Shown here: positions 24,908 to 49,123 of the stretch, piece after piece | How the letters are laid out: each line of letters starts with the position of its first letter | Numbering within the stretch: the first letter of the stretch is position 1 | DNA from: Pseudonocardiaceae bacterium YIM PH 21723 | GTDB taxonomy: Bacteria; Actinomycetota; Actinomycetes; Mycobacteriales; Pseudonocardiaceae | Length of the DNA: 64,000 bases | Assembly (NCBI GenBank): GCA_003600225.1 | Contig: QZFT01000034.1 | Location: 62,001-126,000 of the forward strand | Direction: 5' to 3' | Notes under the pieces: generated by a model | Seen by the model: only the letters and a program-made list of their open reading frames with translations | Told to the model about the DNA's origin: nothing | The model's database searches: none | Program-made: the position numbers and the translations under genes

Positions 24908-25692
24908 GTGATCCGCTCCTGCACGCGGTGGGCTGATCGTGACGAGATCTCATCGTAGAAGCGTGCCGCTTGGCCGACGAACGCCCGACCCGAAGCACTT
25001 CGGTAATGCTCCGCGTAGTCCAGGTACTCCCGCCGGAGGTCATCAGTTCGTCCCAACCCATGCAAGCCTCGCAGACGCAGGTGGAGCAGGTCTGGGTCCC
25101 GTCCGCGGTCAGCGCTAAGCCGGTCAACTTCACGAAGCACGTCAGCGAACTGCTGAAGTTCAATCTGGCTGGAGAGCAGCCCGAGGCGCATCCGGAACTG
25201 GATCTCATCTACGCGACGGCGGAGTTGGATACCCGGATCTGTATCGAGATCGGGAAGCACGACGCCACCCCAGGAGTCCAGCGCCGTGCGGTACAGGCTG
25301 ACTGCCGGCAGATACATGGTCATCTTCGCCATGCACGCAGCACGTTCGCCAAGTCGCCTCGATCTATGGAAGTCGATGTCCCGGGCCTGCACGTTCAGTC
25401 GGAACCCTGTGCGGGAGCCTATGAGCGCTGTGGAGATGCCGATCTGGCGCAGGAGGGCACGGGCCCGATGAGCGTGCGTGTTCAGCGTTTTGTTTACTCC
25501 ACGCGGGCGTTCATCCGGGTTCCAGATGAGCTCGGCCAGTCTGCTCCGAGAAACCTCCTTCCCCACATTGAGCAACAGGACGGACAACATGGCTCGTGGA
25601 GTCGGCGAGAGTTCGATCGGACAGTACTCTTCGCCGTTCAGGACTTGTGTGCCGCCCAAGATTCGGAATCGCGGCAGATCCGGCTGCGTCAT
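24889..25692 (-). CDS. SARP-type regulator (OmpR-like HTH plus BTAD)
   Basis: The 267-residue protein has the arrangement of Streptomyces antibiotic regulatory proteins. The N-terminal winged helix has LSPTPRAMLSVLLLNVGK and SRSRLAELIWNPDERPRG, then NTHAHRARALL. A bacterial transcriptional activator domain of helical repeats follows, from about residue 115. It contains no NB-ARC domain, so it is the small SARP form. It overlaps the upstream TPR-HTH gene by 4 bases (ATGA). It probably activates a biosynthetic or stress operon, possibly its own. Confidence 0.8.
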   Translation of the reverse strand: MTQPDLPRFRILGGTQVLNGEEYCPIELSPTPRAMLSVLLLNVGKEVSRSRLAELIWNPDERPRGVNKTLNTHAHRARALLRQIGISTALIGSRTGFRLNVQARDIDFHRSRRLGERAACMAKMTMYLPAVSLYRTALDSWGGVVLPDLDTDPGIQLRRRVDEIQFRMRLGLLSSQIELQQFADVLREVDRLSADRGRDPDLLHLRLRGLHGLGRTDDLRREYLDYAEHYRSASGRAFVGQAARFYDEISSRSAHRVQERITWNRYS

Positions 25693-29729: not shown

Positions 29730-31151
29730 GTGCAACGCTCTATTCGGCGTGCCTTGATTCTGTTAACCGCCACCGCTGTCGTCTGTAGTGGCCTGGGGTC
29801 CGCGGCGGCAGCGACATCCAGTCCGACCCTGAACGGCGAATACGACGCCGTGCGAAGTGTGCCGCTCACCAAAGACAATGCCCACGCGTCACTAGACCAG
29901 ATGTTCGCCGCTCACCCTGCACCGCGATCAGCCGCAGCGCTCGCTGGCGGCGCAGAACGACCGGAGTTCAGCGAGAAGAGCCGGGCGCAGCAGCAGGAGA
30001 TCGCCAGGCCTGGTAAGTACATCCAAGGTGCGCGGCAGGTCAGCAGCGCGAATCGAAGTGCGCTCGCCAGTGGTGTCGACGACAAGGTGACGCCAGAAGA
30101 ATGCCGGCAGAAGTTCCTGGATGACGACCTCAAGGGAGCGGTGTGGTTCAAGAACCACTTCTCCGCCTGCCACGCCAGGATCCTGCTGTTCGACCACTAC
30201 CAGTGCAAGGGCAAAGACTGCGTACTGACCGGCCGGGCAATGGCCGACGCCGTCTTCTTCACGACCATGAACAAGAACGAGCGGGCCGCCGATCTGGCCG
30301 TGAAGCTGTGGGACTTCAAGGAGCAGAACTACCCGAACGAACGCCGGATCAACTTCGCCGTAGGTTGCTGGGGAGCCCAGAGCGGAGTGCGGTGCGACCC
30401 AACGACCTCTGAAGTGACGGGCACCTTCGGCGAGTGGAAGAACTACGGCACCGTGTATCGCCCGGTGAAGTACATCGGCACGGGGACCGAGACGCCGAAT
30501 GATCCGGCTCTCAATGAGAAGCGCACCTACTTCGAACTGAACCCGTACTTCTACGTCGAGAGCGGCAACAAGGACGGCTCCCCCGCCTTCGTGACGTTCC
30601 CACCCGTCTACCTGCGCTGCGACATCGCGCGGACCGCGGTCAACCCGCAGTACGCACGTGGCAGTGACTGCATCTTCCATGAGCTGGCCGGCAGCTTCCA
30701 GGTCAGCGCCTCGGACCCGGCCATCGCCGAGTCCGCTCAGTTCATCCGCCGAGCACAGGAACACATCGAGCAGACCAAGCCGGGCACCCCAGGTACCTAC
30801 GTTCCAGGCAGGTACGGGTCCGGCCAGGCCTTGACTCGCATGTACTACGACCAGGCGGCGATCGACACCAACCGCTCGACCTCGATCGCTAAGTGCGTGG
30901 AGTTCTTCGGACCGGACTACACCAAGCGGAACGACCCGAAGAACCCGTCGGACACGAACGACTGCGACGAGTACCCGTTCGCCAAAACCCATCAGGGCAC
31001 CTACTCGGTCAAGGGCAACACACCCCGTAGCTACGCCGTCCAACCGCTACTCAGCCAGCACAACCAGAAGCTGGGCAGCATGCTGGGAATCTGGATGGGC
31101 GAGGACCACATCCTCGAAGAGGACCCGTTCTACGTGATCATCACCGACTAG
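29730..31151 (+). CDS. Secreted protein with a NucA/NucB-type deoxyribonuclease domain
   Basis: The 473-residue protein begins at GTG after AGGGGGA. It has a signal peptide (ALILLTATAVVCSGLGSAAA, cleavage near residue 27) and a pre-region with a conserved VRSVPLTKDNAHASLDQMFA segment. A large Tyr-rich middle domain follows, then a C-terminal NucA/NucB-like segment (about residues 360-473) with CDEYPFAKTHQGTYSV and later HNQKLGSMLG and DPFYVIITD. CDEYPFA is the hallmark. Cysteines suggest disulfides outside the cell. It may be a secreted nuclease toxin or scavenging enzyme. A strong terminator follows directly. Confidence 0.82.
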   Translation: MQRSIRRALILLTATAVVCSGLGSAAAATSSPTLNGEYDAVRSVPLTKDNAHASLDQMFAAHPAPRSAAALAGGAERPEFSEKSRAQQQEIARPGKYIQGARQVSSANRSALASGVDDKVTPEECRQKFLDDDLKGAVWFKNHFSACHARILLFDHYQCKGKDCVLTGRAMADAVFFTTMNKNERAADLAVKLWDFKEQNYPNERRINFAVGCWGAQSGVRCDPTTSEVTGTFGEWKNYGTVYRPVKYIGTGTETPNDPALNEKRTYFELNPYFYVESGNKDGSPAFVTFPPVYLRCDIARTAVNPQYARGSDCIFHELAGSFQVSASDPAIAESAQFIRRAQEHIEQTKPGTPGTYVPGRYGSGQALTRMYYDQAAIDTNRSTSIAKCVEFFGPDYTKRNDPKNPSDTNDCDEYPFAKTHQGTYSVKGNTPRSYAVQPLLSQHNQKLGSMLGIWMGEDHILEEDPFYVIITD

Positions 31152-31665: not shown

Positions 31666-31722
31666 GCCGGTAGGCGAGATACCTTGGTTCGGCAGAACTG
31701 TCTGCTCCGGGAGGTCGGCATC

Positions 31723-31947
31723 ATGAAGCAGTCCAGATGGTCGGTTCCGCTGTTAGCGGGTCTGGCCGCGGTGCTCTGCGCGCTGGTCACTTCCGCGGGC
31801 GCCGCTGGCGACAGTCCGGCCATGTACAGCAGGGACGACGTACGCAGTGTGCCGATGAACCGTGAGAACCTCGATGCCACGCTAGACGAGCTTTTCGCCA
31901 AGTATCCGCCGCAGGCGCCTTATCCAACGGTCGTACCGACTCGCTAG
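31723..31947 (+). CDS. Small secreted protein resembling the nuclease leader
   Basis: The open frame of 74 codons starts with ATG after GGAGG. The signal peptide (VPLLAGLAAVLCALVTSAGA) is followed by a mature part that matches the segment after the nuclease signal peptide. DDVRSVPMNRENLDATLDEL here corresponds to DAVRSVPLTKDNAHASLDQM in the nuclease at 29730. It stops where the nuclease continues, so it is either an orphan pre-region (a chaperone or inhibitor-like propeptide) or the remnant of a second nuclease. Confidence 0.65.
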   Translation: MKQSRWSVPLLAGLAAVLCALVTSAGAAGDSPAMYSRDDVRSVPMNRENLDATLDELFAKYPPQAPYPTVVPTR

Positions 31948-32000
31948 ACGGTGTGGCCACACCCGCCGGCAAGCCCTGGGACACCTCTTGGTGTTCAAGA

Positions 32001-32040
32001 CGCAGGTTGGCAGTACGGCTACCCGCTTGACCAACCTGCG
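32001..32040 (+). terminator. Terminator-like hairpin before the Tad locus
   Basis: CGCAGGTTGG (32001-32010) pairs perfectly with CCAACCTGCG (32031-32040) across a 20-base loop. It separates the nuclease block from the prepilin peptidase gene starting at 32072. Confidence 0.5.
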
Positions 32041-32071
32041 GAGTTAAACGATCAAGGCTAGGTTTGCAGAT

Positions 32072-32716
32072 GTGCCAGTTCAGGCTGTACTGATCGGTAC
32101 CAGCGTCTCCTGTCTGCTGAGTCCATTCCTGGCAGCGGTCACCATCCGGATGCCGCGTTCGCAGCGATTGTTCGGCGATGGCGGATGGCATGGACGAGGC
32201 ACGTCAGCATCCCGTGTCGGACTCCTAGCCACCGTCAGTGTTCTCCTGACCGTGGCCATCGCCAACCGCGTCCCCTTTGCGCTCTGCGTCCCCATCTGGG
32301 GAGTAGCGCTGTGCGGCGTGGTGCTTTCGGTGATCGACTATGAGCATCGTCGGCTACCTAACCAACTGGTGTTGATCGTTGGTTCGCTCGGTCTGCTCAC
32401 GGTGGTCACGAGGTGCAGCGTCGACGCGTTCCTGAGCAGCGCAGTAGCTGCGACGAGCACAGCACTAGCGTTCGGCACTGTCGCTCTGGCCTCACAGCGA
32501 TCGTTCGGTACCGGTGATGCCAAGATCGCGGCGAGTTTGGCACTCACAACCGGCGCGCTGGGCTGGAGTACCTGGCTGCAGAGCCTCCTTTTCGCGGCCC
32601 TGTTCAATGCGGTCGCCGCAGTCGTCATTCTGGCCGTCTACCGATCAGGTTCCCGAAAGTTTGCCGCAGGACCCGGCATTATCGCCGGCGCACTACTGGC
32701 CATCTGCCTGAATTGA
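32072..32716 (+). CDS. Type IV prepilin peptidase (A24, TadV-like)
   Basis: The 214-residue membrane protein has the two aspartates of the A24 peptidase family: VIDYEHRRLPNQL (first Asp) and FGTGDAKIAASLAL (GxGD second Asp). Several hydrophobic helices surround them, and FAAGPGIIAGALL near the C-terminus corresponds to the family FGP block. It lacks the N-methyltransferase domain, as expected for TadV-type enzymes. It probably cleaves the Flp and TadE-like pilins encoded at 38896-40322. The GTG start has no strong ribosome-binding site. Confidence 0.85.
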   Translation: MPVQAVLIGTSVSCLLSPFLAAVTIRMPRSQRLFGDGGWHGRGTSASRVGLLATVSVLLTVAIANRVPFALCVPIWGVALCGVVLSVIDYEHRRLPNQLVLIVGSLGLLTVVTRCSVDAFLSSAVAATSTALAFGTVALASQRSFGTGDAKIAASLALTTGALGWSTWLQSLLFAALFNAVAAVVILAVYRSGSRKFAAGPGIIAGALLAICLN

Positions 32717-32979
32717 GTAGACCAATGTCTTGAATTAGACATGCACGTGCAGCCACCCTGCGCGATTTTGGATCGCCGACTAATGGATCTGGGTGAGGCG
32801 TATGAGCACCCAATGTGATGGACAGGTACGGCCATGAGTAGCGCGCCGTGTCCGCTGCTGATCCATTGTGGTGTTGTAAGCCGAGGACCGTTGCGAGACC
32901 AATCCGCAACGGAGTCAACTGTGTCTCTGTTGCCTGCAAGTCATGGTTTGAGCAGGTCGAAACGAGAGGGACGTGCGTA

Positions 32980-33534
32980 ATGGGACTGGGCGGAACACCA
33001 ACAAGGTTGCATTGGTCTAGCAGACTGGCAGCTCTTGTCGGCGTGGCACTACTCGGCTCAGGCTGCTCCAATCCTCCGGTTGCCGACAAGCAACCGAGCA
33101 CGTCGCCTGCTCTGCCCGCCAGTACGTCAGTTAAGCCGCAGGACGAAATAGAAGCGGCATATCGCGAGTTCTGGGCGGTGTCCTGGCCGCTGATCAAACA
33201 GCCCCAGCAAACGTGGCGCGAGAAATTGGGCACGGTGGCTATGGAGCCGGAGTTGACGCGTCTGATTCGCGGTTACGAACAACTCCAGCAATCGGGTACC
33301 ACCCTCTACGGCACTGTGGAGCCACACCTGAAATCGGTAGAGGTCGTGACCAACGGCAGTGCCGCCAAGGTGATCGACTGCCAGGACGCTGGTCATTCCG
33401 GTCAGGCGGACGCCGCCTCCAACAAGGCGAAGAACGTCGGCGTCGCTCGGAATCCAGTGAATGCCCTCGTCAAACGAGACTCTGACGGGCATTGGAAGGT
33501 CGCCGACATCGCCTATCCGGGAGGCGAATGCTGA
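32980..33534 (+). CDS. Lipoprotein of the Tad locus, unknown function
   Basis: The 184-residue protein starts at ATG 32980 with GAGAGGG upstream. It has a signal peptide ending in a lipobox (VALLGSGC), so it is a predicted lipoprotein at the outer face of the membrane. A low-complexity Ser/Pro linker follows, then a domain around residues 50-180 (AAYREFWAVSWPLI, later HWKVADIAYPGGEC) that looks like small NTF2/SnoaL-like folds by pattern only. It overlaps the next gene's start and is a Tad-locus component by position. Confidence 0.6.
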   Translation: MGLGGTPTRLHWSSRLAALVGVALLGSGCSNPPVADKQPSTSPALPASTSVKPQDEIEAAYREFWAVSWPLIKQPQQTWREKLGTVAMEPELTRLIRGYEQLQQSGTTLYGTVEPHLKSVEVVTNGSAAKVIDCQDAGHSGQADAASNKAKNVGVARNPVNALVKRDSDGHWKVADIAYPGGEC

Positions 33535-34421
33535 TGTTCGCCGTCGCTCTCGTGATTGCGGTCCTGGCCACCACGTCCGGATCCATCGCTCATGCGGAGG
33601 AGCCGCCGATCGTAGTTGCGCCGGGTGACCATGGCGGGGTTTTCGGGCATCCGACAGTCGATCTCGGAGCTCACCTACCCGGACGACCGGGACAACCGGA
33701 CTCGATCTCCGAATCGCAGGGCGGATCTACCGCGTCTTGTCTGTACGACCAGGTCAGCGATACCCCTCCACCTGGTTACGAAGGTCCATGGGAACCAGGC
33801 ATGCAGGCGGGCCATCAGGTCGGGTCCAGCCTAGGGCCGGGAGTGGATTGGGGATCCTGCCAGGTCGGCTGGGTAGTCAATCGGACCGAGCCGAATACTC
33901 CGGGGCCATCAGCTGCAGTGCTGGCTCAGCAGGCGTATCGGCAGCTCGTATTGCCCTTGCCGGTGCCGCGGCACTCACCGGATCTGCGGCTTGCCGATGG
34001 CCGGCCCGCGACCGTGGTCGGTGAGCACACCTGGCTGTGGACAGAACCGGTCGCCTGGTCCCCACAACGTAAGCGGCTAGATGTGGGCCCGGTTTGGGCC
34101 GAGGTGATCGCGACTCCGGTCGCTATGGAGTTCACACCCGGCGACGGCAGCCAGGCGATCCGGTGCGCCGGCCCAGGAACGGCGTTCGACCGAGTTCGGT
34201 TCGGAGTGCACGCCGCATCACCGGATTGCGACTACGTCTATCAGCGCTCGTCCTTCGGCAAGCCCGATGACCAGGTGACCGCGGAATACGCGATCACCTG
34301 GCAGGTCACCTGGACAGGTTCGACCGGTGCCGCGCCGGCGGGCGGCACCTTGGCGCCGCTGACTTCGCGGGCCACGGCGCGGTTCGCGGTCGCCGAGATC
34401 CAGGCGTTGCGCGCCGGATGA
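33528..34421 (+). CDS. Secreted protein of the Tad locus
   Basis: The 297-residue protein starts at ATG 33528, inside the last codons of the lipoprotein gene, after GGGAGG. A short signal peptide (MFAVALVIAVLATTSGSIAHA) precedes a Pro/Gly-rich extracellular region with two cysteines (ASCLYDQ, GSCQVGW) and a C-terminal beta-rich region. No family is recognised. Its place between the peptidase and the CpaB-like gene suggests an extracytoplasmic pilus-assembly protein. Confidence 0.6.
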   Translation: MLMFAVALVIAVLATTSGSIAHAEEPPIVVAPGDHGGVFGHPTVDLGAHLPGRPGQPDSISESQGGSTASCLYDQVSDTPPPGYEGPWEPGMQAGHQVGSSLGPGVDWGSCQVGWVVNRTEPNTPGPSAAVLAQQAYRQLVLPLPVPRHSPDLRLADGRPATVVGEHTWLWTEPVAWSPQRKRLDVGPVWAEVIATPVAMEFTPGDGSQAIRCAGPGTAFDRVRFGVHAASPDCDYVYQRSSFGKPDDQVTAEYAITWQVTWTGSTGAAPAGGTLAPLTSRATARFAVAEIQALRAG

Positions 34422-34436
34422 ACTGGGAGAACAGCC

Positions 34437-35060
34437 ATGCTGATTTCGGAGAAGCGAGCTACCGCACAACGACCGGCGGTGCCGCGTAAACGCCGTTGGT
34501 GGGTCGTGGGGCTGGGAGTCGCGCTGGTCGGCGCGTCGGTGCTGGGAACACAGACGTACCTCTCCGCCCGCGATGCTCGGGTGCCGGTTGTACTGGTCGT
34601 CCGGGATGTGTCGTGGGGACATGCGATCACCGCGGCTGATCTCGGGACCACCGACGTGGTCACCGGTCCGGAGCTGAAGGTCATCCGTGCCGCGGATCGG
34701 GATCAGTTGATCGGCCGTACGGCCAAGACCGGACTGGTTGGCGGGTCGCTCCTGACGACGGACCAGCTCCAGGATCAACCCGTCCCCGGCCCCAGGCAGG
34801 TTCTCGTCGGGATCCCGGCAAAGCCTGGACAACTTCCGGCGAGGGGCCTGCGGGCCGAGGAACCGGTGATGGTCACCCCTATCGGCAACTCCGTCGCGAA
34901 CACCAGCGGAACCTCGGTGTCCGCGACGGTGTTCGAGGTGAGCGCACCGGACGCGAACGGGGTGGTCATCGTGGACATCGTTGTTCCCGCCGAGCTGGCA
35001 GGGACCGTCACTCCGGCTGCCGCAGGCGGCGCGGTGCTCGCGCTCGTGGGCCCGAGGTAG
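34437..35060 (+). CDS. SAF-domain protein (CpaB/RcpC-like)
   Basis: The 207-residue protein has one transmembrane helix (RRWWVVGLGVALVGASVLG) followed by a SAF domain (VPVVLVVRDVSWGHAITAAD, LGTTDVV). Flp pilus assembly proteins of the CpaB/RcpC type have this organisation. It starts 15 bases after the previous gene, with a weak ribosome-binding site (GGGAGAA). Confidence 0.75.
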   Translation: MLISEKRATAQRPAVPRKRRWWVVGLGVALVGASVLGTQTYLSARDARVPVVLVVRDVSWGHAITAADLGTTDVVTGPELKVIRAADRDQLIGRTAKTGLVGGSLLTTDQLQDQPVPGPRQVLVGIPAKPGQLPARGLRAEEPVMVTPIGNSVANTSGTSVSATVFEVSAPDANGVVIVDIVVPAELAGTVTPAAAGGAVLALVGPR

Positions 35061-35072
35061 GGGTGTACGGCG

Positions 35073-35867
35073 ATGGCGATGATCGCGTTCGTATCGGCCA
35101 AAGGCTCTCCAGGCGCTACCTCGACGGTGGCGGCGCTGGCCTCCAGCTGGCCGGCTCCGCTGCTGGTGGTGGACGCTGATCCGGCCGGCGGTGATCTCGC
35201 ACCGGGATGGTTGTCCGCGTGGCTTCCCAGCGGACATGTACGGCTGGACCGGGGCGTCGTGTCCTTCACCGCCGCGACACGTCGGTTTGCGCGGGTGACG
35301 GCCGCCGAGCTGACTCCGCATCTGCAGCAGGTGCCGGACTTGGATTCGGTGAAGGTGCTGGTCGGGCTGACCGATCCCGCGCAGAACGTGGTCATCGGCC
35401 GAGATGGTTGGCAGCGACTGGCCCAGGCCGTGACCGGCGCCGGGGTGGATGTGCTGGTGGACGTGGGCAGGCTCGGACCGGACACGCCCTGGTCCTTGCT
35501 TCAGGGCGCACAGCTGGTTCTGCTGTCGGTGCGCTCCACCCAGCGCTCCGTGCTCGCCGGGCGGGTTGCCCTGTCGGCGCTTGCCACGCAGGTCGATCAG
35601 TCCCTGCTTGGATTGTCGGTCTCGGCAAGCACACCGAGCAGGGCGGATGAGGTCGGGCGCGCGCTGGGCATGACCGTTGGTGTGCGCCTGCCGGTGGACC
35701 CGGTGGGCGCGACGGTGTTCTCCGACGGAAGCGAACCCCGCGCTGGTAAAAGGCCGCTGGCGCAGGTCGCCGCACGGGAAGCAATCCGGTTGCAGGCCAG
35801 CCTGAACCGACCCGCACCGCGCAGTCCGCTGCAGCTGGCCCTGCATCGAGCGGGGGCCGGCAGATGA
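35073..35867 (+). CDS. TadZ/CpaE-like MinD-family ATPase
   Basis: The 264-residue protein has a deviant Walker A (KGSPGATSTVAAL) near residue 10 and VVDADPAGGD near residue 35, typical of MinD/CpaE-like localisation factors. In Tad systems this protein places the pilus machine. It overlaps the CpaF gene by 4 bases (ATGA). Confidence 0.8.
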   Translation: MAMIAFVSAKGSPGATSTVAALASSWPAPLLVVDADPAGGDLAPGWLSAWLPSGHVRLDRGVVSFTAATRRFARVTAAELTPHLQQVPDLDSVKVLVGLTDPAQNVVIGRDGWQRLAQAVTGAGVDVLVDVGRLGPDTPWSLLQGAQLVLLSVRSTQRSVLAGRVALSALATQVDQSLLGLSVSASTPSRADEVGRALGMTVGVRLPVDPVGATVFSDGSEPRAGKRPLAQVAAREAIRLQASLNRPAPRSPLQLALHRAGAGR

Positions 35868-37216
35868 GCCATTTCAACAAACAGTGGGTACCGGCACCGG
35901 CTGCCGAGCACGTGGTCGTGCAGGAGATCCGGAAGCGGGTGGTGGATCGCCTACGGAATGCCGGACCAGTGATTTCCGCCGAACATCAGGCCATCGTGCG
36001 GTCCGAAGTGGACTCCTGGGTGGCCCGGCGAGCGCAGGCCGGGCACGTGTTGCCGCCGGTTGAGCTGGAAACCCAGCTGGCCGCTGCGGTCTTGGCGGAG
36101 ATGTCCGGGGTCGGACGCCTGGAACCGCTGCTGGAACGGCCCGACGTGGAGAACATCCACATCCATGGCCATGACCGGGTGTTCCTGGAGCTGTCCACCG
36201 GGGAGATCGAACGGCATCCGTATCCGGTGGCTGATTCGGACGCTGATCTGATCGAGCGGCTGTCGGCGATGTTCGCTCAGCTCGGGCAGACCGCCCGCGA
36301 GTTCTCCCGCGCGAACCCGATCGGGAACCTGCATCTGCCGATGGGTGGTCCGCTCGGGTCACGGTTGGCCGCGGTGATCGAGGTCAGTGGCAGGCCGAAC
36401 GTGGCGATCCGTCGCTATCGACTCACCGACACCACCCTGGAAGACCTCGTCCGCGAGGGCACGGTGGACGGGCTGCTGGTCGAGGTGCTGCGGGGTGCCA
36501 TCAACGCGGGCTGCAACATCGTCGTCTCCGGCGGGCCTGCGGCGGGTAAGACCACGCTGCTGCGGACCTTGTGCCAGGAGATCAGTCCTGCCGAGCACCT
36601 GCTCACCGTCGAAGACGAGCGGGAACTGGGGCTGGAGCTGTTCGCGCAGCATCCGATGGTCACCGCCTGGGAGGCCCGGCTACCGAACGCCGAAGGCGCC
36701 GGTTCGATCACCATGGACGAGCTACTCAAGCAGGCTCTCCGGCACTCGCCGCATCGGGTGATCGTCGGCGAGGTGCGCGGCGGTGAGGTCACCAGCATGC
36801 TGCGCGCACTGGGCAACGGCGCCTACGGCGGCATGTGCACCTTGCACGCCACCAGCGCACACGCCGTGCTGGACCGGATCGCGTCGCTGGGAACTCTCGC
36901 GGATCCGCCGATGCCGATCGAGGCCGCCTACCGGTGGACCGCCGCCGCGGTGGACCTCGTCGTCCACGCGCGGAAACGCGACACCCGGCAGGGCCGGGAA
37001 CGGTTCATTTCCGAGATCGTGGAGATCGGCCAGGTCGGCGAGAACGGCCGCCCGGACACCACCACGCTGTTCAGCCCGCGCCCGGCCGATGGGCGCGCCG
37101 TGCCGTCCTATCCACCGAGTCCAGCACTTCTGGCACGGCTGCGGGAACACGGAGTGGATCCGCGTATCTGGAGCGAGTTCCCAGACGGCACCTGGCAACC
37201 GGGGGTGCTGCGATGA
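35864..37216 (+). CDS. cpaF: Pilus-assembly ATPase TadA/CpaF
   Basis: This 450-residue hexameric secretion ATPase powers Flp pilus extension. It shows Walker A SGGPAAGKTTLLRTL near residue 222, an Asp box (LLTVEDERELGLEL), Walker B HRVIVGEVRGGEV near residue 297 and the His box GGMCTLHATSA. The N-terminal domain carries the VENIHIHGHDRVFLEL segment of the family. It is ATGA-coupled to the neighbours on both sides. Confidence 0.92.
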   Translation: MSHFNKQWVPAPAAEHVVVQEIRKRVVDRLRNAGPVISAEHQAIVRSEVDSWVARRAQAGHVLPPVELETQLAAAVLAEMSGVGRLEPLLERPDVENIHIHGHDRVFLELSTGEIERHPYPVADSDADLIERLSAMFAQLGQTAREFSRANPIGNLHLPMGGPLGSRLAAVIEVSGRPNVAIRRYRLTDTTLEDLVREGTVDGLLVEVLRGAINAGCNIVVSGGPAAGKTTLLRTLCQEISPAEHLLTVEDERELGLELFAQHPMVTAWEARLPNAEGAGSITMDELLKQALRHSPHRVIVGEVRGGEVTSMLRALGNGAYGGMCTLHATSAHAVLDRIASLGTLADPPMPIEAAYRWTAAAVDLVVHARKRDTRQGRERFISEIVEIGQVGENGRPDTTTLFSPRPADGRAVPSYPPSPALLARLREHGVDPRIWSEFPDGTWQPGVLR

Positions 37217-38037
37217 CGCCGTGGTTGCTCGGCCTCCTGCTCGGTGCCGGTCTGCTCCTGATCACGTGCGGCCTCTACGGCGGCCACCTGACGATCGATG
37301 TGTCCCGGCTACGCCGGTTGCCGGTAGGCCTCCTGGTGGGCGCGGTGATTCTCGGAGCACTGGGTTGGCTGGTGACTGGCTGGCCGGTGGCCGGTTTCTG
37401 TATGGCTGCAGCCGTGTTCGGGCTCCGACCGGTCCTGCGCGCTTCGGCCGCCGCGCAGCAGATCGAGCGTCTGGAGGCCTTGGCCGACTGGTGTACCCGA
37501 CTCGCTGAGCTGCTGCGCTCCGGTGCGGGCGGCCTGCATCACGCGTTGGTCGCCAGCGCCCGTACCGCGCCTCCTCAACTCGCCGAGCCACTCACCACCC
37601 TGGCGGGCCGGCTGCGCGCGGAGGGCATCGACAAGGCCCTGCGCGAGTTCGCCGACTTGCTGGCGGACCCGGACGCTGACGCGGTGGTCGCGTCGCTGCT
37701 CCTGCGGGCCACGGCGGGCGGTTCCGGTCTGGTCGCCGTGCTGGACGGGCAGGTGGCGGCTCTGCGGCGGACCGCGTCCGACCGGCGGGACATCGAGTCC
37801 GACCGGGCGAAACCCCGTACCCAGGCCAAAATCGTGCTACTGATCGTCTCGACCGTCCTGGCGATCCTGATCGCGACCTCCGGCCCGCTCATGGCCACCT
37901 ACGACACCACCACCGGCCAGGTCTGGCTCGCGGGCATCGCCGGGATCTTCGCCGCGGCGATCTACTGGATGCACCGGCTCACCAGCCAGCCACCGACTCT
38001 GCGACTGTTCACCTCCCCTCCGCGGGGTGGTTCCTGA
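37213..38037 (+). CDS. tadB: TadB-like membrane platform protein
   Basis: The 274-residue protein has N-terminal membrane helices (LLGLLLGAGLLLITCGLYGG and a second pair) and a T2SSF-like cytoplasmic domain (LADWCTRLAELLRSGAGGLH). Two C-terminal helices close it (IVLLIVSTVLAILIATSGPL). It starts at ATG 37213, overlapping the CpaF stop. With TadC it should form the inner-membrane platform of the pilus. Confidence 0.85.
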   Translation: MTPWLLGLLLGAGLLLITCGLYGGHLTIDVSRLRRLPVGLLVGAVILGALGWLVTGWPVAGFCMAAAVFGLRPVLRASAAAQQIERLEALADWCTRLAELLRSGAGGLHHALVASARTAPPQLAEPLTTLAGRLRAEGIDKALREFADLLADPDADAVVASLLLRATAGGSGLVAVLDGQVAALRRTASDRRDIESDRAKPRTQAKIVLLIVSTVLAILIATSGPLMATYDTTTGQVWLAGIAGIFAAAIYWMHRLTSQPPTLRLFTSPPRGGS

Positions 38038-38885
38038 TGGCCATACTGCTCGGGCTACTCCTTGGCCTGGGGTTGATTCTGATCTGCTGGGCTCTGCTCC
38101 CTGCGGCTCCGGTGGATCTCGTCGCGGTCCTGTCCCGGATCGATGCTCACCAGCAGCCCAGTCAACCGCCGCAATCCCATCCGCTGGTGCGCGGAGCCAC
38201 CGCCTATGTGAGCCGCTCCGAGCACCGGCTGTTGCGGTTGCCCACGGCAGATCTGGCCCTGCTGGGCCAAGAGCCCACCCAGTTCGTGGCCCGTCGGCTG
38301 AGTTTCCTGCTCGCGGGGTCCGTGCTCGGCGCGGTCATCGCACTACGCGCTGGGACACCGCTGCTGATCATCCCGCTCGTGATCGGACTGGGAGTCGCGG
38401 CGTCCCTGGTTCCCGGCCGAGTAACGGCGGCCGCCGCGATGCGGATGCGCCGCGATGTCCGCGCACAGGTGGCGACAGCGTTCGATCTGGTCGCACAGGA
38501 ACGCGACGCCGGCCGGGCCCCGGCCCAGGCCCTGCAGACGGCGACCGAGATCGCCGACAGTCCGGTCTTCACCCGCCTCGCCGCCACGCTGCGCGAAGCC
38601 CGTCACCGTGGTGTCCCAGCCTGGCAGGCCCTGTCCGAGCTGGGCCGGCAGATCGAGGTCCGTGAGCTGACAGATCTGTCCGAGGTCATGGCCACGGCGG
38701 CCGATGGCGCCGCCGTCAGTACGGGCCTGCGAGACAAGGCCGCCGCGCTGCGCTCCGCGACGCGCAGCGACGAGCGAGCCGCGGCCAACCGTCGCAGCGA
38801 ACTCCTGGTCGGCCCTGTCGCACTGCTGGTGGTCGGGTTCCTCGTCCTGCTTCTGCACGCTGTCCTGGCTTACACACCGATCTAG
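38037..38885 (+). CDS. tadC: TadC-like membrane platform protein
   Basis: This 282-residue T2SSF-family protein has N-terminal helices (LLGLLLGLGLILICWALLP), a second pair (LLIIPLVIGLGVAASLV), a central helical domain (AFDLVAQERDAGRAPAQALQ) and a C-terminal helix (VALLVVGFLVLLLHAVLAY). It shares one base with the TadB stop (TGATG). Organisation and order match actinobacterial Tad loci. Confidence 0.85.
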   Translation: MAILLGLLLGLGLILICWALLPAAPVDLVAVLSRIDAHQQPSQPPQSHPLVRGATAYVSRSEHRLLRLPTADLALLGQEPTQFVARRLSFLLAGSVLGAVIALRAGTPLLIIPLVIGLGVAASLVPGRVTAAAAMRMRRDVRAQVATAFDLVAQERDAGRAPAQALQTATEIADSPVFTRLAATLREARHRGVPAWQALSELGRQIEVRELTDLSEVMATAADGAAVSTGLRDKAAALRSATRSDERAAANRRSELLVGPVALLVVGFLVLLLHAVLAYTPI

Positions 38886-38895
38886 GAGCACCACC

Positions 38896-39102
38896 ATGAA
38901 CAAGACCAACGCCTGGTTGATGAGCACACTCCTGCACCTCGGCGATCAGCTCCGCCGAGCGGCCCGCGACGAGGACGGCGCCGAAACCGTCGAGGTCGCC
39001 GTCTGGATCGGCCTGATCGCCCTGGTGGCCATCGTGCTGCTCTATCCCAAGATCGAGAGCTACATCAATTCGGTGTCCAGCACCTGGAAGACCGGGCCGT
39101 GA
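38896..39102 (+). CDS. flp: Flp-type major pilin (prepilin)
   Basis: The 68-residue protein has a 32-residue basic leader and the junction EDGAETVEVAVWIG, which fits prepilin-peptidase cleavage after Gly with Glu at mature position +5. A hydrophobic helix (VAVWIGLIALVAIVLLY) and a short polar tail follow. Length and motif fit actinobacterial Flp pilins (DUF4244 group). It follows TadC by 10 bases. Confidence 0.85.
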   Translation: MNKTNAWLMSTLLHLGDQLRRAARDEDGAETVEVAVWIGLIALVAIVLLYPKIESYINSVSSTWKTGP

Positions 39103-39497
39103 TCCGCCGCCGGTGGCAGCAGGACGACGGAGCGTCCACGGTGGAATGGGCCATCTGGGCCGTGCCCGCCGTGGTCGCGCTGCTGGCGATCCTGCAGGCC
39201 GGGATCTGGTGGTACGACCGGGACGTCTGCACCGAAGCCGCGCAGCAGGGCATGGATGCCGCCCGCATCACCACGGGCACCGAAGCCGCCGCACAGCACG
39301 CGGCGAGCAGGTTCCTGACCCATACCAACGCCCCGCTGTCCGACCACGCCGTGACCGCCTCGCGGTCGGCGACCACCGCGCGCGTCCAGGTCTCCGGCAC
39401 CGTCATGCAGATCATCCCGATCCCCGGCTTCGTCTGGCGCATCAGCCAGAGCAGCGAAGGAGCCGTCGAACGCTTCACGGTCCCCGGTGGATCATGA
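39099..39497 (+). CDS. TadE-like pseudopilin 1
   Basis: The 132-residue protein starts at GTG 39099 and overlaps the pilin stop. The prepilin-like junction is QDDGASTVEWAIW, with Gly before Ala and Glu at +5. After one helix comes a soluble domain with WWYDRDVCTEAAQQGMDAAR, typical of TadE. It is likely a minor pilin at the tip or base. Confidence 0.8.
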   Translation: MIRRRWQQDDGASTVEWAIWAVPAVVALLAILQAGIWWYDRDVCTEAAQQGMDAARITTGTEAAAQHAASRFLTHTNAPLSDHAVTASRSATTARVQVSGTVMQIIPIPGFVWRISQSSEGAVERFTVPGGS

Positions 39498-39928
39498 AGC
39501 AGCTCGAGGACGACGAGGGCGCGGTGACCGTGGAGGTCGCCGTCTGGCTCCTGCCCATCGTCATCCTGGGCCTGCTGCTGTGGGCCTTCGGCCGCCTCGA
39601 ACTCGCCCACAGCGCCGTCCAACACGTCACCATCAGCGCGGCCAGGCAGGCCTCCATCGCTCGCACACCCGGCGAAGCCCGTACCCAGGCCACCGCGGTC
39701 GCCCAGCGGGTGCTCGCCGAACAACACGCCCGCTGTTCCAGCACGTCCGTCACGGTGGACACCAGCGGTTTCTCCGCGCCGCCCGGACAACCCGCGACGG
39801 TCCGCGTCGAGGTCACCTGCGTCCTGGACGTCTCGGACCTGATCAGCGTTCCGGGCCTACCCGGCAGCAAAACGATCACCGATTCGTTCAGCAGCCCCCT
39901 AGATCCCTATCGAGGCAGGAGCGGGTGA
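39494..39928 (+). CDS. TadE-like pseudopilin 2
   Basis: The 144-residue protein has the junction DDEGAVTVEVAVW, a hydrophobic helix (LLPIVILGLLLWAFG), and the TadE pattern VTISAARQASIARTPGEA. Two cysteines (ARCSSTSV, EVTCVLDV) may form a disulfide. It is ATGA-coupled to the previous gene. Confidence 0.8.
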   Translation: MKQLEDDEGAVTVEVAVWLLPIVILGLLLWAFGRLELAHSAVQHVTISAARQASIARTPGEARTQATAVAQRVLAEQHARCSSTSVTVDTSGFSAPPGQPATVRVEVTCVLDVSDLISVPGLPGSKTITDSFSSPLDPYRGRSG

Positions 39929-39932
39929 GGAC

Positions 39933-40322
39933 ATGCTGTGCGACGAGAACGGCTCGATGTCGGTCTACATGGCCCTGCTGATCCCGATCTTTTTGCTGAT
40001 CCTGGCACTGGTCGTCAACGGCCACGGCTACCTCCAAGCCGTCGCCAAGGCCGACGCGGTCGCCGCCGAGGCTGCCCGTGCCGCGGTGTCGGCCGTGGAC
40101 ACCCGCGGCGCCACCGCGACCGTCGACCTCAACGACGCGGTGAACGCCGGACGTGCCTACCTGAGCCAGGCCCGTGTGGCCGGCTCGGTCACCGTGCAGG
40201 ACCGCAACAAGGTCCAGGTGGACGCCACTGTCGATGAGCCGGCGCTTCTGCCGCTCCTGATCACCCGCTATCACGCGAGCGGTCACGCCACCGCGGTACT
40301 CCAGATCGGCACACGGCCATGA
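39933..40322 (+). CDS. TadE/TadG-like pseudopilin 3
   Basis: The 129-residue protein has the junction DENGSMSVYMALLIPIFLL. The glycine is kept but Tyr replaces the +5 Glu of the other three pilins. The soluble part contains AVAKADAVAAEAARAAVSAV, typical of the TadE/TadG type. It is followed with a 4-base overlap by the LysM-BTAD gene. Confidence 0.75.
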   Translation: MLCDENGSMSVYMALLIPIFLLILALVVNGHGYLQAVAKADAVAAEAARAAVSAVDTRGATATVDLNDAVNAGRAYLSQARVAGSVTVQDRNKVQVDATVDEPALLPLLITRYHASGHATAVLQIGTRP

Positions 40323-42853
40323 CTCGTGGACAAATCATCCTGCGCGGCCTCGCCGCTCTGACCGGTTTGATGGCCATCCTCGTGGGGATCCCAGCCCTCG
40401 CGTTCACGCTGGGCGCGACACCGGAGAGCCTCATTCCGCCGCTGCACGGAGACCTGCTCATCGCCCTGCACTGGGCCTGGCAAGACGGCAGCCTCCTGAC
40501 CTGGCTGTTCCGCGTCCTGCTGTGGGCCGGCTGGCTGATTCTGGTCGCCCAGATCGCGCGGGAAGTATTCGCCCACCTCCGGTACGGCGCCGCCGTACTG
40601 CACCAGCGTCTGGCCGCCACTGGCCCCCGCGCGTGGATCGCCAGTCTGGTCTCCTCGGTCATTCTCATGGCAGGTACCACCAGCAACGCCGCCCCCGCGA
40701 CGCCCACAACCATCGTGGCCACCGCCCAAGCCGACCCATCCCCAGCGACCCCCAACGGAGACGGCGCACAGGTGACCGTGGCACACGGCGACAGCCTCTG
40801 GTCACTAGCCGAAACCCACCTCGGCGACGGAAACCGTTACCCGGAGATCCTCGAGCTCAACCGACACGACATCCAGAACCCAAACCAGCTTCGACCCGGC
40901 CAACAACTCCGCTTGCCGACTGACGCCGTCCAACTCCCGGCTCGGAGTCCGCTGGCCTACCAGATCGACGTTCAGCCTGGCGACAGCGCCTCCACCATCG
41001 CGCAACGCGAGTACGGAGACCCCGCACACTGGCACCGGATCTGGGAGATCAACCACCACCGCCCACAGCCCGACGGCCGCGTCTGGCGCAACCCGCAGAT
41101 CATCCTGCCTGGCTGGAAACTCTGGATCGAACCCGCTCACAACGCCCCGGAATCAGCGCACACCACGCCCCGACCCACTGACAACACACGCACACCAGCA
41201 CCACCACCATCTGCGGACAATGACCATCACGCGAGTCCGTCAACAGTGACCTTGCCCTCGGGCGCCGTGGTGGGCATCGGCCTGGCAACGGCAGTCACCG
41301 CACTGCTGATAATCGGCCGACGCCGACGCCGAGCCCGCCGGAAACTGCCCGGCACCTTGCACGGCCGATCCGAACCGCGCAGCTCCAGCCCCACCCTCCG
41401 AGCTCTCGAATACGCGGCGCTGCAAGCCCCGGCAGCAGAAGAACGCCGATGGACCTGGCCGCCGAACAACGCCCAGCTGACCGCGCACACCACGGCAGGC
41501 CGACCAGTCAGCCTGGATCTCGCCGCCAACGCCGGCATCGGTCTCACAGGGCCCGGCGCCCCTTCGGCGGCACGGGCAATCATCGCCGGACTGCTGACCA
41601 CCGATTCCCTTCATCCTGGCCAGGTGATCATCGCCAGCGAACTGCTCGCGGACGTCATCGGGATCAGTGACTCACAAGGCATCACCATCACCGACACCAT
41701 CGATGACGCCCTCACCACGCTGGAAACCGAACTGGCCCGCCGCTCCCGCCTGCTGGCCGAGTTTGAGCCCGATCTCGGAGACGACACCGCACTGTGGCGG
41801 GCCTACCAGGACAGCGATCCCGCCGAAGCCCTACCCGAGATCCTGCTGTACATAGCACCGTCCCGACGGGCAAACCTCCGTCTGGAGGTCATCCTCACCC
41901 TGGGACGCACCCGCGGTATCCACGGCCTACTCCACGGCCCGTGGCCCACCCGCCTGGAGATCGACGACTCCGGCACCATCACCGGGGCAACGGGCCATGA
42001 TCTCCTCGGCGCCCGCCTGGAGACCCTCGGCCCGCTCGAAGCAGCCGACATTCTTGCCACCGTCAACGCCGCCCGCGCAGAGAGCCCAGCAGAGCCCGAC
42101 GAAGAGCTACCCCCAGCTCCGCCTCCGCCCAGCCTGCCGGCTGCCGCTCCGGTCAGACTGGCCGTCTTCGGCCCGTTCCGCATCTACGTGAACGGCAAGG
42201 AACTGGACAGCGGCCTACGAAAACTCAGTCGCGAGCTCATGGCTTACCTGGCCACCCATCCAGGCGGTACGACACTCGACACCCTGCAGGATCAGATCCT
42301 GCCGAATACACCGTTCGACAAGGCCAAATCCCAGATACAGACCGCCGTCAGCGCTCTACGCGCCCAGCTTCGCAGCCTTACGGGTGACGCGGACGCCGCG
42401 TTCATCACCTACCGGGTGGAGCGCTATCAACTCGATCCGGAGACCGTCACAACCGACCTCATCGAACTGGATCACCTCATAGCCAGCGATGAGCCCTCCA
42501 CGAGCCTGATCGAGCTATGCCGCCCCGGCGAACCCCTGGCAGACGACCTCTACTCCTGGGCCGAACCAGTCCGGGAATCCATCCGGCAGCAAGCCCTCAA
42601 CGCCCTGCTGCACCTGTCCCGAAATACCGAAGGCCACCAGGCCATCGACGCACTCGACACCGCCGTTCACCTCGATCCGTACGCCGAGCCGGTTTATCAG
42701 CGGCTCATCCAGTTGCACACCGACTCCGGGAATCCAAACGCTGCCTTCGCCGTCTACCGGCAACTGCGTGCCAAGCTGGCCGACATCGACTCCGAACCGA
42801 CCGCAGAAACAGATGCCCTGCTCCCGATCCGACGACCAAGACCCCACCGGTAA
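40319..42853 (+). CDS. Large LysM membrane protein with a C-terminal SARP (BTAD) domain
   Basis: The 844-residue protein has two N-terminal membrane helices (LRGLAALTGLMAILVGIPAL; WLFRVLLWAGWLILVAQIA) and two LysM-type modules. The first (about 140-200) has GDSLWSLAETHLGDGNRYPE; the second (about 218-275) has GDSASTIAQREYGDPAHWHR. A further helix (GIGLATAVTALLII) ends in a strongly basic stop-transfer stretch. A cytosolic part follows, ending in a BTAD/OmpR-type domain from about residue 615 (VRLAVFGPFRIYVNGKEL onward). It is the last gene of the Tad operon. The arrangement links a cell-wall-binding outside to a transcription-factor-like inside; surface sensing is inferred. Confidence 0.85.
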   Translation: MTRGQIILRGLAALTGLMAILVGIPALAFTLGATPESLIPPLHGDLLIALHWAWQDGSLLTWLFRVLLWAGWLILVAQIAREVFAHLRYGAAVLHQRLAATGPRAWIASLVSSVILMAGTTSNAAPATPTTIVATAQADPSPATPNGDGAQVTVAHGDSLWSLAETHLGDGNRYPEILELNRHDIQNPNQLRPGQQLRLPTDAVQLPARSPLAYQIDVQPGDSASTIAQREYGDPAHWHRIWEINHHRPQPDGRVWRNPQIILPGWKLWIEPAHNAPESAHTTPRPTDNTRTPAPPPSADNDHHASPSTVTLPSGAVVGIGLATAVTALLIIGRRRRRARRKLPGTLHGRSEPRSSSPTLRALEYAALQAPAAEERRWTWPPNNAQLTAHTTAGRPVSLDLAANAGIGLTGPGAPSAARAIIAGLLTTDSLHPGQVIIASELLADVIGISDSQGITITDTIDDALTTLETELARRSRLLAEFEPDLGDDTALWRAYQDSDPAEALPEILLYIAPSRRANLRLEVILTLGRTRGIHGLLHGPWPTRLEIDDSGTITGATGHDLLGARLETLGPLEAADILATVNAARAESPAEPDEELPPAPPPPSLPAAAPVRLAVFGPFRIYVNGKELDSGLRKLSRELMAYLATHPGGTTLDTLQDQILPNTPFDKAKSQIQTAVSALRAQLRSLTGDADAAFITYRVERYQLDPETVTTDLIELDHLIASDEPSTSLIELCRPGEPLADDLYSWAEPVRESIRQQALNALLHLSRNTEGHQAIDALDTAVHLDPYAEPVYQRLIQLHTDSGNPNAAFAVYRQLRAKLADIDSEPTAETDALLPIRRPRPHR

Positions 42854-46168: not shown

Positions 46169-47503
46169 TCATAGCTGATTCTGACAAAATGGACAGTCTG
46201 ACCCATGCACGAGACTCTGCCGATGCCGTCGACTAGTAATCCGACTTGAAGTCCCCGACATTCCTTCGCGCATCAACAGCTCGGCCACAGTTATTCTTTC
46301 CGAGATATTTCGTCGTCCTTCTTGCCGCACCTTCTCTGCCGCCCGCTGCAAAAGACCAGACAAAGGCGGGAGCACCGCAGGACTTGAAGCACCATTCCGA
46401 TACACCGGACGGAGGTCCGGAGGCGCATCCGGCAGCCATGGATACGGCGGGAGCCTAAAGCTTGCCGACGACTGCGAAACGGTTCCGAAAGGCTCAACAG
46501 GCCCTGACACTGACCCCTCCCCCAGAACCTGGGGTGATCGCTGTCGAGCCCGCAAGCCGAACAGATTCACCGTGCTCAACACGGATTGCGCCGCACCCGT
46601 ATCGTAAGGAAGTTCCAGCAACGCATCCTTGGCCAGCCGAGCCTCCGCAGGCGAGCCGTGCTGAATCTGCTCGATAAGCAGGTCAACCCCATGCTCCCGC
46701 GCCTTCGGCCGGCTGCTCGTCACCATGATCCGGATATCATCAGGGAGCTTGGCGATACTGCTGGCGGTACCAGGGCTACTGGCGACGTACAGCGTCCCCT
46801 CCAGATCGACCGTCTTCCCGGGTGTTTGATGCTTAACCTTTGCCCTGACCTGGTCAAAGACATACTCGTAGAGCTCGTCGACATCGATCAGACCGTCGCG
46901 GTTCCGATCGGCCTCACCGGAACGAAGACCTCGCACCAATGCACTGGTAAAGATGGAAGGACCCAGCGGGCCATCAGCCTCTTCAAAGGCCAGCTCAAGT
47001 TCACTCGACGCTGTGATGATGGCGCGGCCTCGCCCCTTGAATCGGGGCAGAACATCGAGCTTTGCACCCGACCGATGATTGATATTCGCCTTGAACGCCC
47101 CCGCGTAACAACAGTCCAGAAGAAGCAAAATGCGCTGGGAGCTGGATTGCGTCATCTGATCATGAATATATGCAGCTGGAACCGCTGTGGACCCCAACCG
47201 GTTGGCCCGAGAGTCTTTCATGATCAAATGCAGTTGTCCGCGGTCATCCCGGTATCCGTGCCCAGATATATAGAGCACAAGTTGATCATCACGGTGAGAA
47301 TCAGCCAACAGATCCTCGATGGCCATGCGCACTGCGTGTGCGGACTCGTTGTGCATCGCCCGGACGCGATAGTTGCCGATCGCCGGGTCACTGAGCACTG
47401 CTCCCAGGGCCTTGATATCGGCACTCGGCGCACGCAACCGACTGAACGCCTCATCGGCGTAGGTGTCGGTGGCGATAAGAAGCGCCGCCCGCTGCTGCAT
47501 CAT
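46169..47503 (-). CDS. Caspase-family peptidase (C14)
   Basis: The 444-residue protein has the caspase-hemoglobinase fold. ALLIATDTYADEAF comes first, then QLVLYISGHGYRDDRG with the catalytic His and ILLLLDCCYAGAF with the catalytic Cys. The domain covers about residues 1-240 and ends at GTLYVASSP. DRNRDGLIDVDELYEYVF adds the typical Asp-rich helical block. The C-terminal 200 residues form an unknown region, possibly an effector-associated domain that recruits the partner. It lies 184 bases from the divergent EACC1 gene, which matches known caspase-centred conflict systems. Confidence 0.88.
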   Translation of the reverse strand: MMQQRAALLIATDTYADEAFSRLRAPSADIKALGAVLSDPAIGNYRVRAMHNESAHAVRMAIEDLLADSHRDDQLVLYISGHGYRDDRGQLHLIMKDSRANRLGSTAVPAAYIHDQMTQSSSQRILLLLDCCYAGAFKANINHRSGAKLDVLPRFKGRGRAIITASSELELAFEEADGPLGPSIFTSALVRGLRSGEADRNRDGLIDVDELYEYVFDQVRAKVKHQTPGKTVDLEGTLYVASSPGTASSIAKLPDDIRIMVTSSRPKAREHGVDLLIEQIQHGSPAEARLAKDALLELPYDTGAAQSVLSTVNLFGLRARQRSPQVLGEGSVSGPVEPFGTVSQSSASFRLPPYPWLPDAPPDLRPVYRNGASSPAVLPPLSGLLQRAAEKVRQEGRRNISERITVAELLMREGMSGTSSRITSRRHRQSLVHGSDCPFCQNQL

Positions 47504-47687: not shown

Positions 47688-48092
47688 ATGGTCATCATTG
47701 AGATCGAGCTCGACGTAGTTGATGAGAGCCCCGAAATCATCGACCGACTGACGCGCCAGCTACGCACAGAGCTCTCACAAATCCCGGTCGAAAGCGCACA
47801 GCTTCGAAGAGAACCCGGACCGATCGCTTCCAAAGGGGATCTGGTCACCGTTGGTTCGATCGTTGTCGCGGTAGCCAACTCCGCGCTGGTGGGCGGAGTG
47901 GTCGCCGTCCTCCGAACATGGATCAACCGTCACAGGAAGCGCAGCATCACCGTCCAGATCAACGACCAGAAGCTCGAGCTGTCAGGGGGCACCCCTGCAG
48001 AACATCAGCAAGTCATCGACGGCTTCCTACGAGCAACAGAGACACTCTCCAATCCCAAGGATCCCAGGGAAGGTAAGGCGATCGATAGTTGA
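47688..48092 (+). CDS. EACC1-like adaptor (effector-associated constant component 1)
   Basis: The 134-residue protein starts at ATG 47688. It has an N-terminal alpha/beta part (LTRQLRTELSQIPVESAQL), a hydrophobic helix (LVTVGSIVVAVANSALVGGV) followed by basic residues (NRHRKR), and a C-terminal strand pair (ITVQINDQKLELSGG) with a closing helix. This matches the EACC1 constant component of actinobacterial ternary conflict systems, in which it joins an effector such as a caspase. The assignment is from pattern and context. Confidence 0.75.
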   Translation: MVIIEIELDVVDESPEIIDRLTRQLRTELSQIPVESAQLRREPGPIASKGDLVTVGSIVVAVANSALVGGVVAVLRTWINRHRKRSITVQINDQKLELSGGTPAEHQQVIDGFLRATETLSNPKDPREGKAIDS

Positions 48093-48550: not shown

Positions 48551-49123
48551 CAACTCCTGCCCAACACCCCTCCGGAGGCGGCTCGACACCAGCTGAACAC
48601 CGCGATCAGTGGAACCCGCTCCCTGCTACGCGCAGCTACAGGTGATTCAGGCGCCCACTTCATCACGCACCGCGCCAACCGCTACCGGCTGGATCTTGAA
48701 CTGGCCACCTCCGACCTGCTCGAACTTGAGGCCGCCATCGCCGATGCCTACGCCAAGGCCACGGACTTCCGCCGGATCATCGAGCTCTGCCGCCCCGGTG
48801 AACTGCTGCACTCCGCCGCATACAGCTGGGCCGAACCAGTCCGCGAAGTCATCCGGCACCAGGCCCTCAACGCCCTGTTCCACGTAGCTCACACGGCCGA
48901 GGACACCATGGCTGTCGAGGCCCTGCAGGTTGCTGTCCGCCTCGACCCGTACGCCGAGCAGATCTACCAGCACCTCATCCGCCGCCACACCGACGCAGGC
49001 CGGCCAGACGCCGCCATCGCGATCTACAGGCAGCTGCGGGCCAGGCTGGCCGAGATCGATGCGGAGCCCACCAACGAGACCGAGGCGCTGCTGCCGATCC
49101 CACGATCCAGGCCCCGCCGTTAA
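48551..49123 (+). pseudogene. Remnant of a second LysM-BTAD gene (3' end)
   Basis: An open stretch of 190 codons without a start follows an in-frame TAG at 48548. Its product parallels the C-terminus of the 40319 gene step by step. QLLPNTPPEAARHQLNTAIS matches QILPNTPFDKAKSQIQTAVS. Then IELCRPGELLHSAAYSWAEP matches IELCRPGEPLADDLYSWAEP, and RLDPYAEQIYQHLIRRHTD matches HLDPYAEPVYQRLIQLHTD. The resemblance continues past the stop into the CCCACCGTTGG flank and hairpin 2. It is the debris of an older duplicate. Confidence 0.85.

Follow-up and report, generated by a model that had tools for sequence, protein, structure and literature searches.

A LysM protein with a predicted SARP-type cytoplasmic module ends the operon of one actinobacterial Tad pilus subtype

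The window, that is, the whole stretch of DNA analysed here, comprises 64,000 nucleotides from Pseudonocardiaceae bacterium YIM PH 21723 (contig QZFT01000034.1, positions 62,001 to 126,000), and contains a complete Tad operon on its + strand. In 5' to 3' order, the operon begins with a prepilin peptidase identified by a Peptidase_A24 domain match (32072-32716), a CpaB/RcpC-like SAF protein found by Pfam and a further match (34437-35060), and a TadZ/CpaE-like gene assigned from a weak match and synteny (35073-35867). The TadA ATPase follows (35864-37216, Pfam and a further match), then TadB (37213-38037), for which Pfam matched T2SSF on the longer open reading frame 36835-38037 and we picked the start, and TadC, also T2SSF by Pfam (38037-38885). 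A Flp pilin candidate at 38896-39102 has a weak match under the cut-off (E 0.01). Three TadE/G-type genes come next: a TadE-like pseudopilin with a domain match (39099-39497), another whose match lies slightly under the cut-off (39494-39928), and a TadE/G-like protein recognized by Pfam (39933-40322). The last gene, at 40319-42853, is a single open reading frame starting with ATG; it encodes a LysM / FtsK-like / SARP membrane protein of 844 aa with LysM and BTAD domains, and its first 4 bases, ATG included, are shared with the end of the TadE/G-type gene before it, stop included. A preliminary description of the sequence had placed a LysM and BTAD fusion at these positions, at the end of a Tad operon, and this is borne out by the open reading frame, the Pfam domains and the neighbouring genes. 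The protein encoded at 29730-31151 (+), just upstream of the pilus genes, looks secreted and has a DNase domain of the NucA/NucB type (E 2e-6).

Pfam detects one LysM domain in the 844-aa protein (residues 153-200, E 7.9e-13, 48.6 bits against a cut-off of 20.9) and the BTAD domain (residues 740-834, E 1.2e-8, 35.9 bits against 22.1). A full-length AlphaFold2 model, built on an alignment of 63 sequences (mean pLDDT 79, pTM 0.44), is confident for the individual domains but not for their mutual arrangement. Its helices lie at residues 3-30, 58-89, 104-119 and 316-341. Residues 150-199 and 214-270 each form a small domain, an alpha/beta domain spans about 378-587, and from residue 612 on the chain forms a winged helix and helical repeats. 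Hydropathy places predicted transmembrane (TM) segments on the same helices: TM1 (residues 3-30, 40325-40408), TM2 (residues 58-89, 40490-40585), the weaker TM3 (residues 104-119, 40628-40675) and TM4 (residues 316-341, 41264-41341), the last followed by an arginine cluster; family hydropathy agrees for TM3 and TM4. The first LysM (residues 150-200, 40766-40918) is recognized by Pfam and by its fold. The second (residues about 214-270, 40958-41128) goes undetected by Pfam and is indicated by the alignment, the model and the fold; the two small domains match chains with LysM-like parts, with Z of 9.0 and 10.0, respectively. Residues 378-587 (41450-42079) adopt in the model an FtsK/EccC-like motor fold, found by Foldseek and by comparison with solved structures (FtsK motor, Z 17.1, rmsd 2.8 over 204 residues; EccC, Z 16.2; TcpA, Z 16.1). 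An OmpR/SARP-type winged helix at residues 609-712 (42143-42454; model, Foldseek and structure matches) and BTAD at 713-834 (42455-42820; Pfam and fold match) follow, all these features lying on the + strand. Residues 609-841 match EmbR (Z 15.9, rmsd 4.2, 225 residues) and AfsR (Z 15.8, rmsd 4.8, 222 residues), so that the modelled C-terminus is a complete SARP fold, cytoplasmic by prediction. PADLOC gave a TPR-model match to residues 609-709. Both the second LysM and the motor fold had been overlooked in the preliminary description.

By hydropathy, all four TM segments are present in 62 of the 63 aligned members. The net charge after TM4 is positive in 63 of 63 members and that of the TM2-TM3 loop in 60 of 63, and the LysM region is strongly acidic (mean net charge -19.5 over the 63 members). 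Charge pattern and TM segments together predict that both ends lie inside the cell and the LysM domains outside. The orientation first suggested, LysM outside and BTAD inside, is therefore supported as far as prediction goes, with BTAD cytoplasmic and preceded by a real winged helix. A BTAD domain outside the cell was rejected on the predicted topology.

The family motif scan found Walker A in none of the 63 motor domains (0/63), one member having GKS elsewhere in the domain. Residues 378-587 thus share the fold of EccC, FtsK and TcpA and differ from them in this motif, and the domain is predicted to keep an FtsK/EccC-type fold without the catalytic loop, and to be dead as an ATPase. An active FtsK-type motor was rejected for lack of Walker A.

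In the window protein, an OmpR-type winged helix is followed by BTAD, as judged from the EmbR and AfsR fold matches and Pfam, which is the SARP domain order. For the DNA contacts, we used the 12 positions of AfsR given in PMC10936776, the numbering of which agrees with the structure chain used. At these positions, the window protein has R46, L48, L74, F79, D80, K81, Q87, T88, S91, A92, R94 and A95 (AfsR numbering). It thus retains T88 and R94 alone (2/6) of the contacts Q48, W74, P79, T88, R94 and K95 described as conserved among SARPs (PMC10936776). In the recognition-helix region, T88, S91 and R94 are kept, W74, P79, R87, R92 and K95 are lost, and one of four basic contacts is left, against an average of 2.3 in SARPs and 2.0 in the family. 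Lysine or arginine occupies 214 of 696 contact positions in the family. In the control, which consisted of 26 of the 28 SARP loci of the same genome, those with the winged helix covered, the figure is 90 of 312. Elsewhere in the domain, the proportion is about 0.10 (416/4127 in the family, 163/1768 in SARPs), and random sets of 12 positions attain the observed net charge with frequencies of 0.0012 for the family and 0.0016 for SARPs. At the family level, the DNA-contact surface is as basic as in true SARPs. Shared ancestry is part of the reason for this; however, mean column identity in the family is 24%, and since Walker A was lost while the basic contact surface was retained, we argue that the latter does not persist by accident.

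DNA binding by the SARP module is plausible: the domain looks able to bind DNA in most members, less surely in the window protein than in the family. Compared with AfsR and EmbR, which share the winged helix and BTAD fold and, at the family level, the basic contact surface, the window protein has its module at the C-terminal end, past a TM segment, and many contact residues differ. The module occupies residues 609-834, after four predicted TM segments, whereas that of SARPs is N-terminal and the protein soluble. Upstream, in 31700-34440 and four shorter stretches, direct repeats of the SARP operator kind, spaced by 11 or 22 bases, showed no excess over shuffles made by first-order Markov sampling; targets may lie elsewhere. 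A small stand-alone SARP-like protein of 267 aa is encoded at 24889-25692 (-), about 15 kb upstream of the LysM/BTAD gene.

A pattern scan of genome contigs gave 129 relatives, for which 80 loci were kept, 73 of them scoring above 200 bits against the family profile and 7 lower. Tad genes are found in the locus of 70 of these 73 relatives: TadA, TadB, TadC and two or more TadE/G genes in 67, TadA-C with fewer pilin-type genes in two, and TadE/G genes in one locus cut by a contig edge. The remaining three (L048, L056, L081) lie in a stretch without any Tad gene. Where the start could be measured, the overlap with the last pilin-type gene is exactly 4 bases in 46 of 68 cases, and the two genes lie within 30 bases of each other in 60 of 68. 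A match is also present in 136 of 72,556 plasmid records; the four plasmids opened (Rhodococcus, Microbacterium, Streptomyces and Glutamicibacter) all carry the operon with the LysM/BTAD gene, the Glutamicibacter one with two extra genes in between. Full-length, co-linear relatives across Actinomycetota in the same operon position rule out a chance open reading frame or a fusion artefact. A phage-borne family was rejected as well, the matches in phage records being short LysM ones, in five records. The alignment of 63 mentioned above contains the window protein and 62 of the 73 relatives, those with a usable start; near copies, truncated sequences and doubtful starts (L043, L048, L052, L053, L063, L078, L083, L096, L098, L099, L100) and four plasmid members were omitted.

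At E up to 0.01, Pfam recognizes LysM in 48 of 48 members examined, BTAD in 22 and Trans_reg_C in five. To see whether ends unrecognized by Pfam are the same module, the C-terminus of a distant member was folded: L097 (its own BTAD status in Pfam aside), of the Cellulomonas-type group, in which the helix-turn-helix loop is shortened. The model (pLDDT 94, pTM 0.89) had AfsR (Z 15.7, rmsd 3.6, 219 residues) and EmbR as its best matches.

The TadA matches of 60 relatives fall into two score groups, and the gap between them defines as high-scoring those of 190 bits or more. Of the 32 high-scoring loci outside the own genome, all 31 testable ones have the LysM gene downstream, adjacency being judged partly from coordinates, and the 32nd stops at a contig edge. 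One lower-scoring TadA (L205), split over two frames, also has the LysM gene. The second TadA of the own genome (121 bits, L186) has none in the fetched stretch, which ends at a contig edge. The consistent presence of the gene in high-scoring loci suggests that it marks one Tad subtype, and on sequence grounds the protein appears to be a regular part of one Tad (type IVc) pilus subtype of actinobacteria. The fusion, at first thought unusual, is not so within this type of operon, of which it is the standard last gene. The LysM, motor and SARP parts are each of a known kind; their combination is unusual in general and frequent in these operons.

The two halves of the protein also occur apart. 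In 12 of 12 fetched Tad operons from Micromonospora-like genomes (the genus being our guess), the last gene encodes a LysM/TM protein that lacks the motor and SARP parts and is 343-655 residues long from stop to stop; these loci were picked for N-terminal-only matches and are thus a non-random sample. For SARP copies elsewhere in the same genomes, scoring covered five candidates per genome. The last protein of the Tad operon of L203 (10661-14029) has LysM and motor parts and no SARP match. Conversely, five loci without Tad genes (L168, L169, L173, L177, L184) encode TM, motor and SARP parts without LysM, beside a longer relative. In L168 and L169, Pfam shows the adjoining gene to be HSP70-like; in L173 and L177, it is an HSP70 look-alike by eye. 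L056 also has an HSP70-like gene. The five LysM-less loci are possibly a separate system. A caspase-RCC1 gene lies upstream in L168. In a tree of the cytoplasmic part, non-Tad members are interspersed among Tad members, with seven label changes, at least five of them forced by starred branches; the tree took 97 of 101 sequences, four near copies being dropped, and describes relatives of the window protein, itself not included. A DUF2637 gene lies immediately 3' of the SARP membrane protein in both a non-Tad locus (L170, 13647-14657) and a plasmid Tad locus (L035, 18007-19464). The LysM-only versions closing 12 of 12 operons suggest that the anchor half accompanies the pilus, and, taken with the LysM-less versions outside Tad loci, that the SARP half is separable. 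Where the anchor is present without SARP (12 loci), the output seems dispensable for the pilus.

How could such a protein function? In the predicted arrangement, the N-terminus is inside, four TM segments cross the membrane, two LysM domains are outside, and about 500 cytoplasmic residues form the dead FtsK/EccC domain, the winged helix and BTAD. The LysM domains, to go by their name, would attach to peptidoglycan and fix the base of the pilus at the wall. Monoderm machines lack a secretin that could keep them in the envelope and, to our knowledge, no outer-membrane secretin is expected in the actinobacterial lineage; a wall anchor would fit a machine without an outer-membrane channel. To judge from operon position, coupling to the pilin-type gene and the LysM-only variants, the protein would be part of the machine, with an outer half that anchors the pilus base, and we consider it probable that it is both a component of the Tad machine and the machine's anchor to the peptidoglycan wall. 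We read the cytoplasmic half as an added module whose dead motor domain probably serves for docking; the fold suggests that this domain may dock on the cytoplasmic part of the Tad machine. The membrane-held SARP-type module would bind DNA in most lineages and tune expression to the state of the machine, assembled and attached to the wall or not. For this DNA-binding output taken by itself, arguments for and against are about evenly balanced, and the same even chance is given to the explanation as a whole, a Tad part anchored to the wall with a tethered SARP-type output in most lineages. More tentatively, the SARP module at the pilus base may bind DNA only when LysM is seated in the wall and the motor docked, the machine thereby reporting its assembly to the chromosome or plasmid; in Micromonospora-like genomes, the module would have been released for other uses, as in the LysM-less copies beside HSP70-like genes.

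Alternatively, the protein may be a pure structural scaffold that anchors and organizes the Tad base, winged helix, BTAD and dead FtsK domain being protein-interaction modules that no longer touch DNA. We regard this as a serious possibility, though less than an even one. The 4-base overlap suggests machine-like co-expression, the catalytic motif is lost in 63 of 63 members, the window protein has lost most AfsR contacts, no operator signal was found upstream, BTAD resembles TPR repeats, and some Tad operons are served by LysM-only versions. A scaffold does not readily explain, however, why a contact surface of SARP-level basicity is kept at 24% mean column identity while the unused Walker A has fully decayed, nor why LysM-less SARP versions persist outside Tad loci, which implies that the SARP module has a use of its own.

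Two other scenarios are considered. The order of outside sensor, TM segment and inside winged helix, and the basic contact surface, would also suit a dedicated tethered regulator, a one-component protein like ToxR or CadC, which would use LysM to sense the wall, control the tad operon and have no structural role in the pilus. It is unexpected, for a pure regulator, that the LysM/TM half is kept and the DNA-binding half lost in 12 Tad operons, or that its gene and a pilin-type gene share 4 bases at the start (46 of 68 cases), and we find this scenario unlikely. ToxR and CadC are defined by an N-terminal winged helix and a single TM segment; they share with the window protein a winged helix inside and another domain outside, whereas the window protein has its winged helix at the C-terminus, four predicted TM segments, and LysM in place of their sensor domains. 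Finally, the Tad operon could be a mating-pair device of actinobacterial plasmids, the protein coupling wall, motor and plasmid DNA. The 136 plasmid records with a match, the motor fold shared with FtsK, EccC and TcpA, the last a conjugation protein, and a Cutibacterium acnes plasmid whose tad locus is accompanied by conjugation genes (PMC5696575) fit this idea. Nevertheless many loci are on large genome contigs, the motor is dead, and megablast of the window operon against plasmids gave no match, so no plasmid DNA resembling it was found; we therefore tend to dismiss a role in conjugation as very improbable. The preferred reading remains the wall-anchored Tad part with a SARP-type output.

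A similar protein is listed in Table 2 of PMC3666418: PAGK_2369, in the tad locus of a C. acnes plasmid, is described as 'LysM, BTAD' and follows three TadE genes, in a locus that also has SAF, TadZ/A, TadA and two TadB/C genes. The likeness is one of table description rather than of sequence, and its authors name the gene TadB, undiscussed in the portions of the paper drawn upon here. In plasmid-bearing C. acnes strains, cell appendages and a TadE-type protein are reported (PMC5696575). LysM does not occur in the main text of PMC6668835, and the searched literature, which leaves most subscription journals outside and where such table entries can hide, gave no description of a LysM/SARP Tad protein beyond the PMC3666418 entry. 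As to TsaP, the match with the window protein is confined to the LysM stretch, the link to pili being common to TsaP and other LysM pilus-associated proteins. In 2012, what Tad systems do in Actinobacteria was described as unexplored (PMC3316620). A conserved and widespread last gene is a direct candidate for the missing anchor and for signalling from assembly to expression, and if the proposal is true, gene expression may be informed by a pilus machine of that machine's own state. Versions with LysM only and versions without it occur naturally, which makes the two halves experimentally separable.

Further downstream in the window, 46169-47503 (-) encodes a protein with a caspase domain (Pfam, E 3.4e-12), next to which lies an EACC1 gene at 47688-48092 (+; E 1.6e-5), a pair that looks like an effector or conflict module; on the neighbouring genes, PADLOC gave caspase matches only. 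At 48551-49123 (+), a second copy of the LysM/BTAD gene survives as a relic that is truncated at the 5' end. It is 59% identical to residues 658-844, has a stop just upstream, and is devoid of the LysM/TM part.
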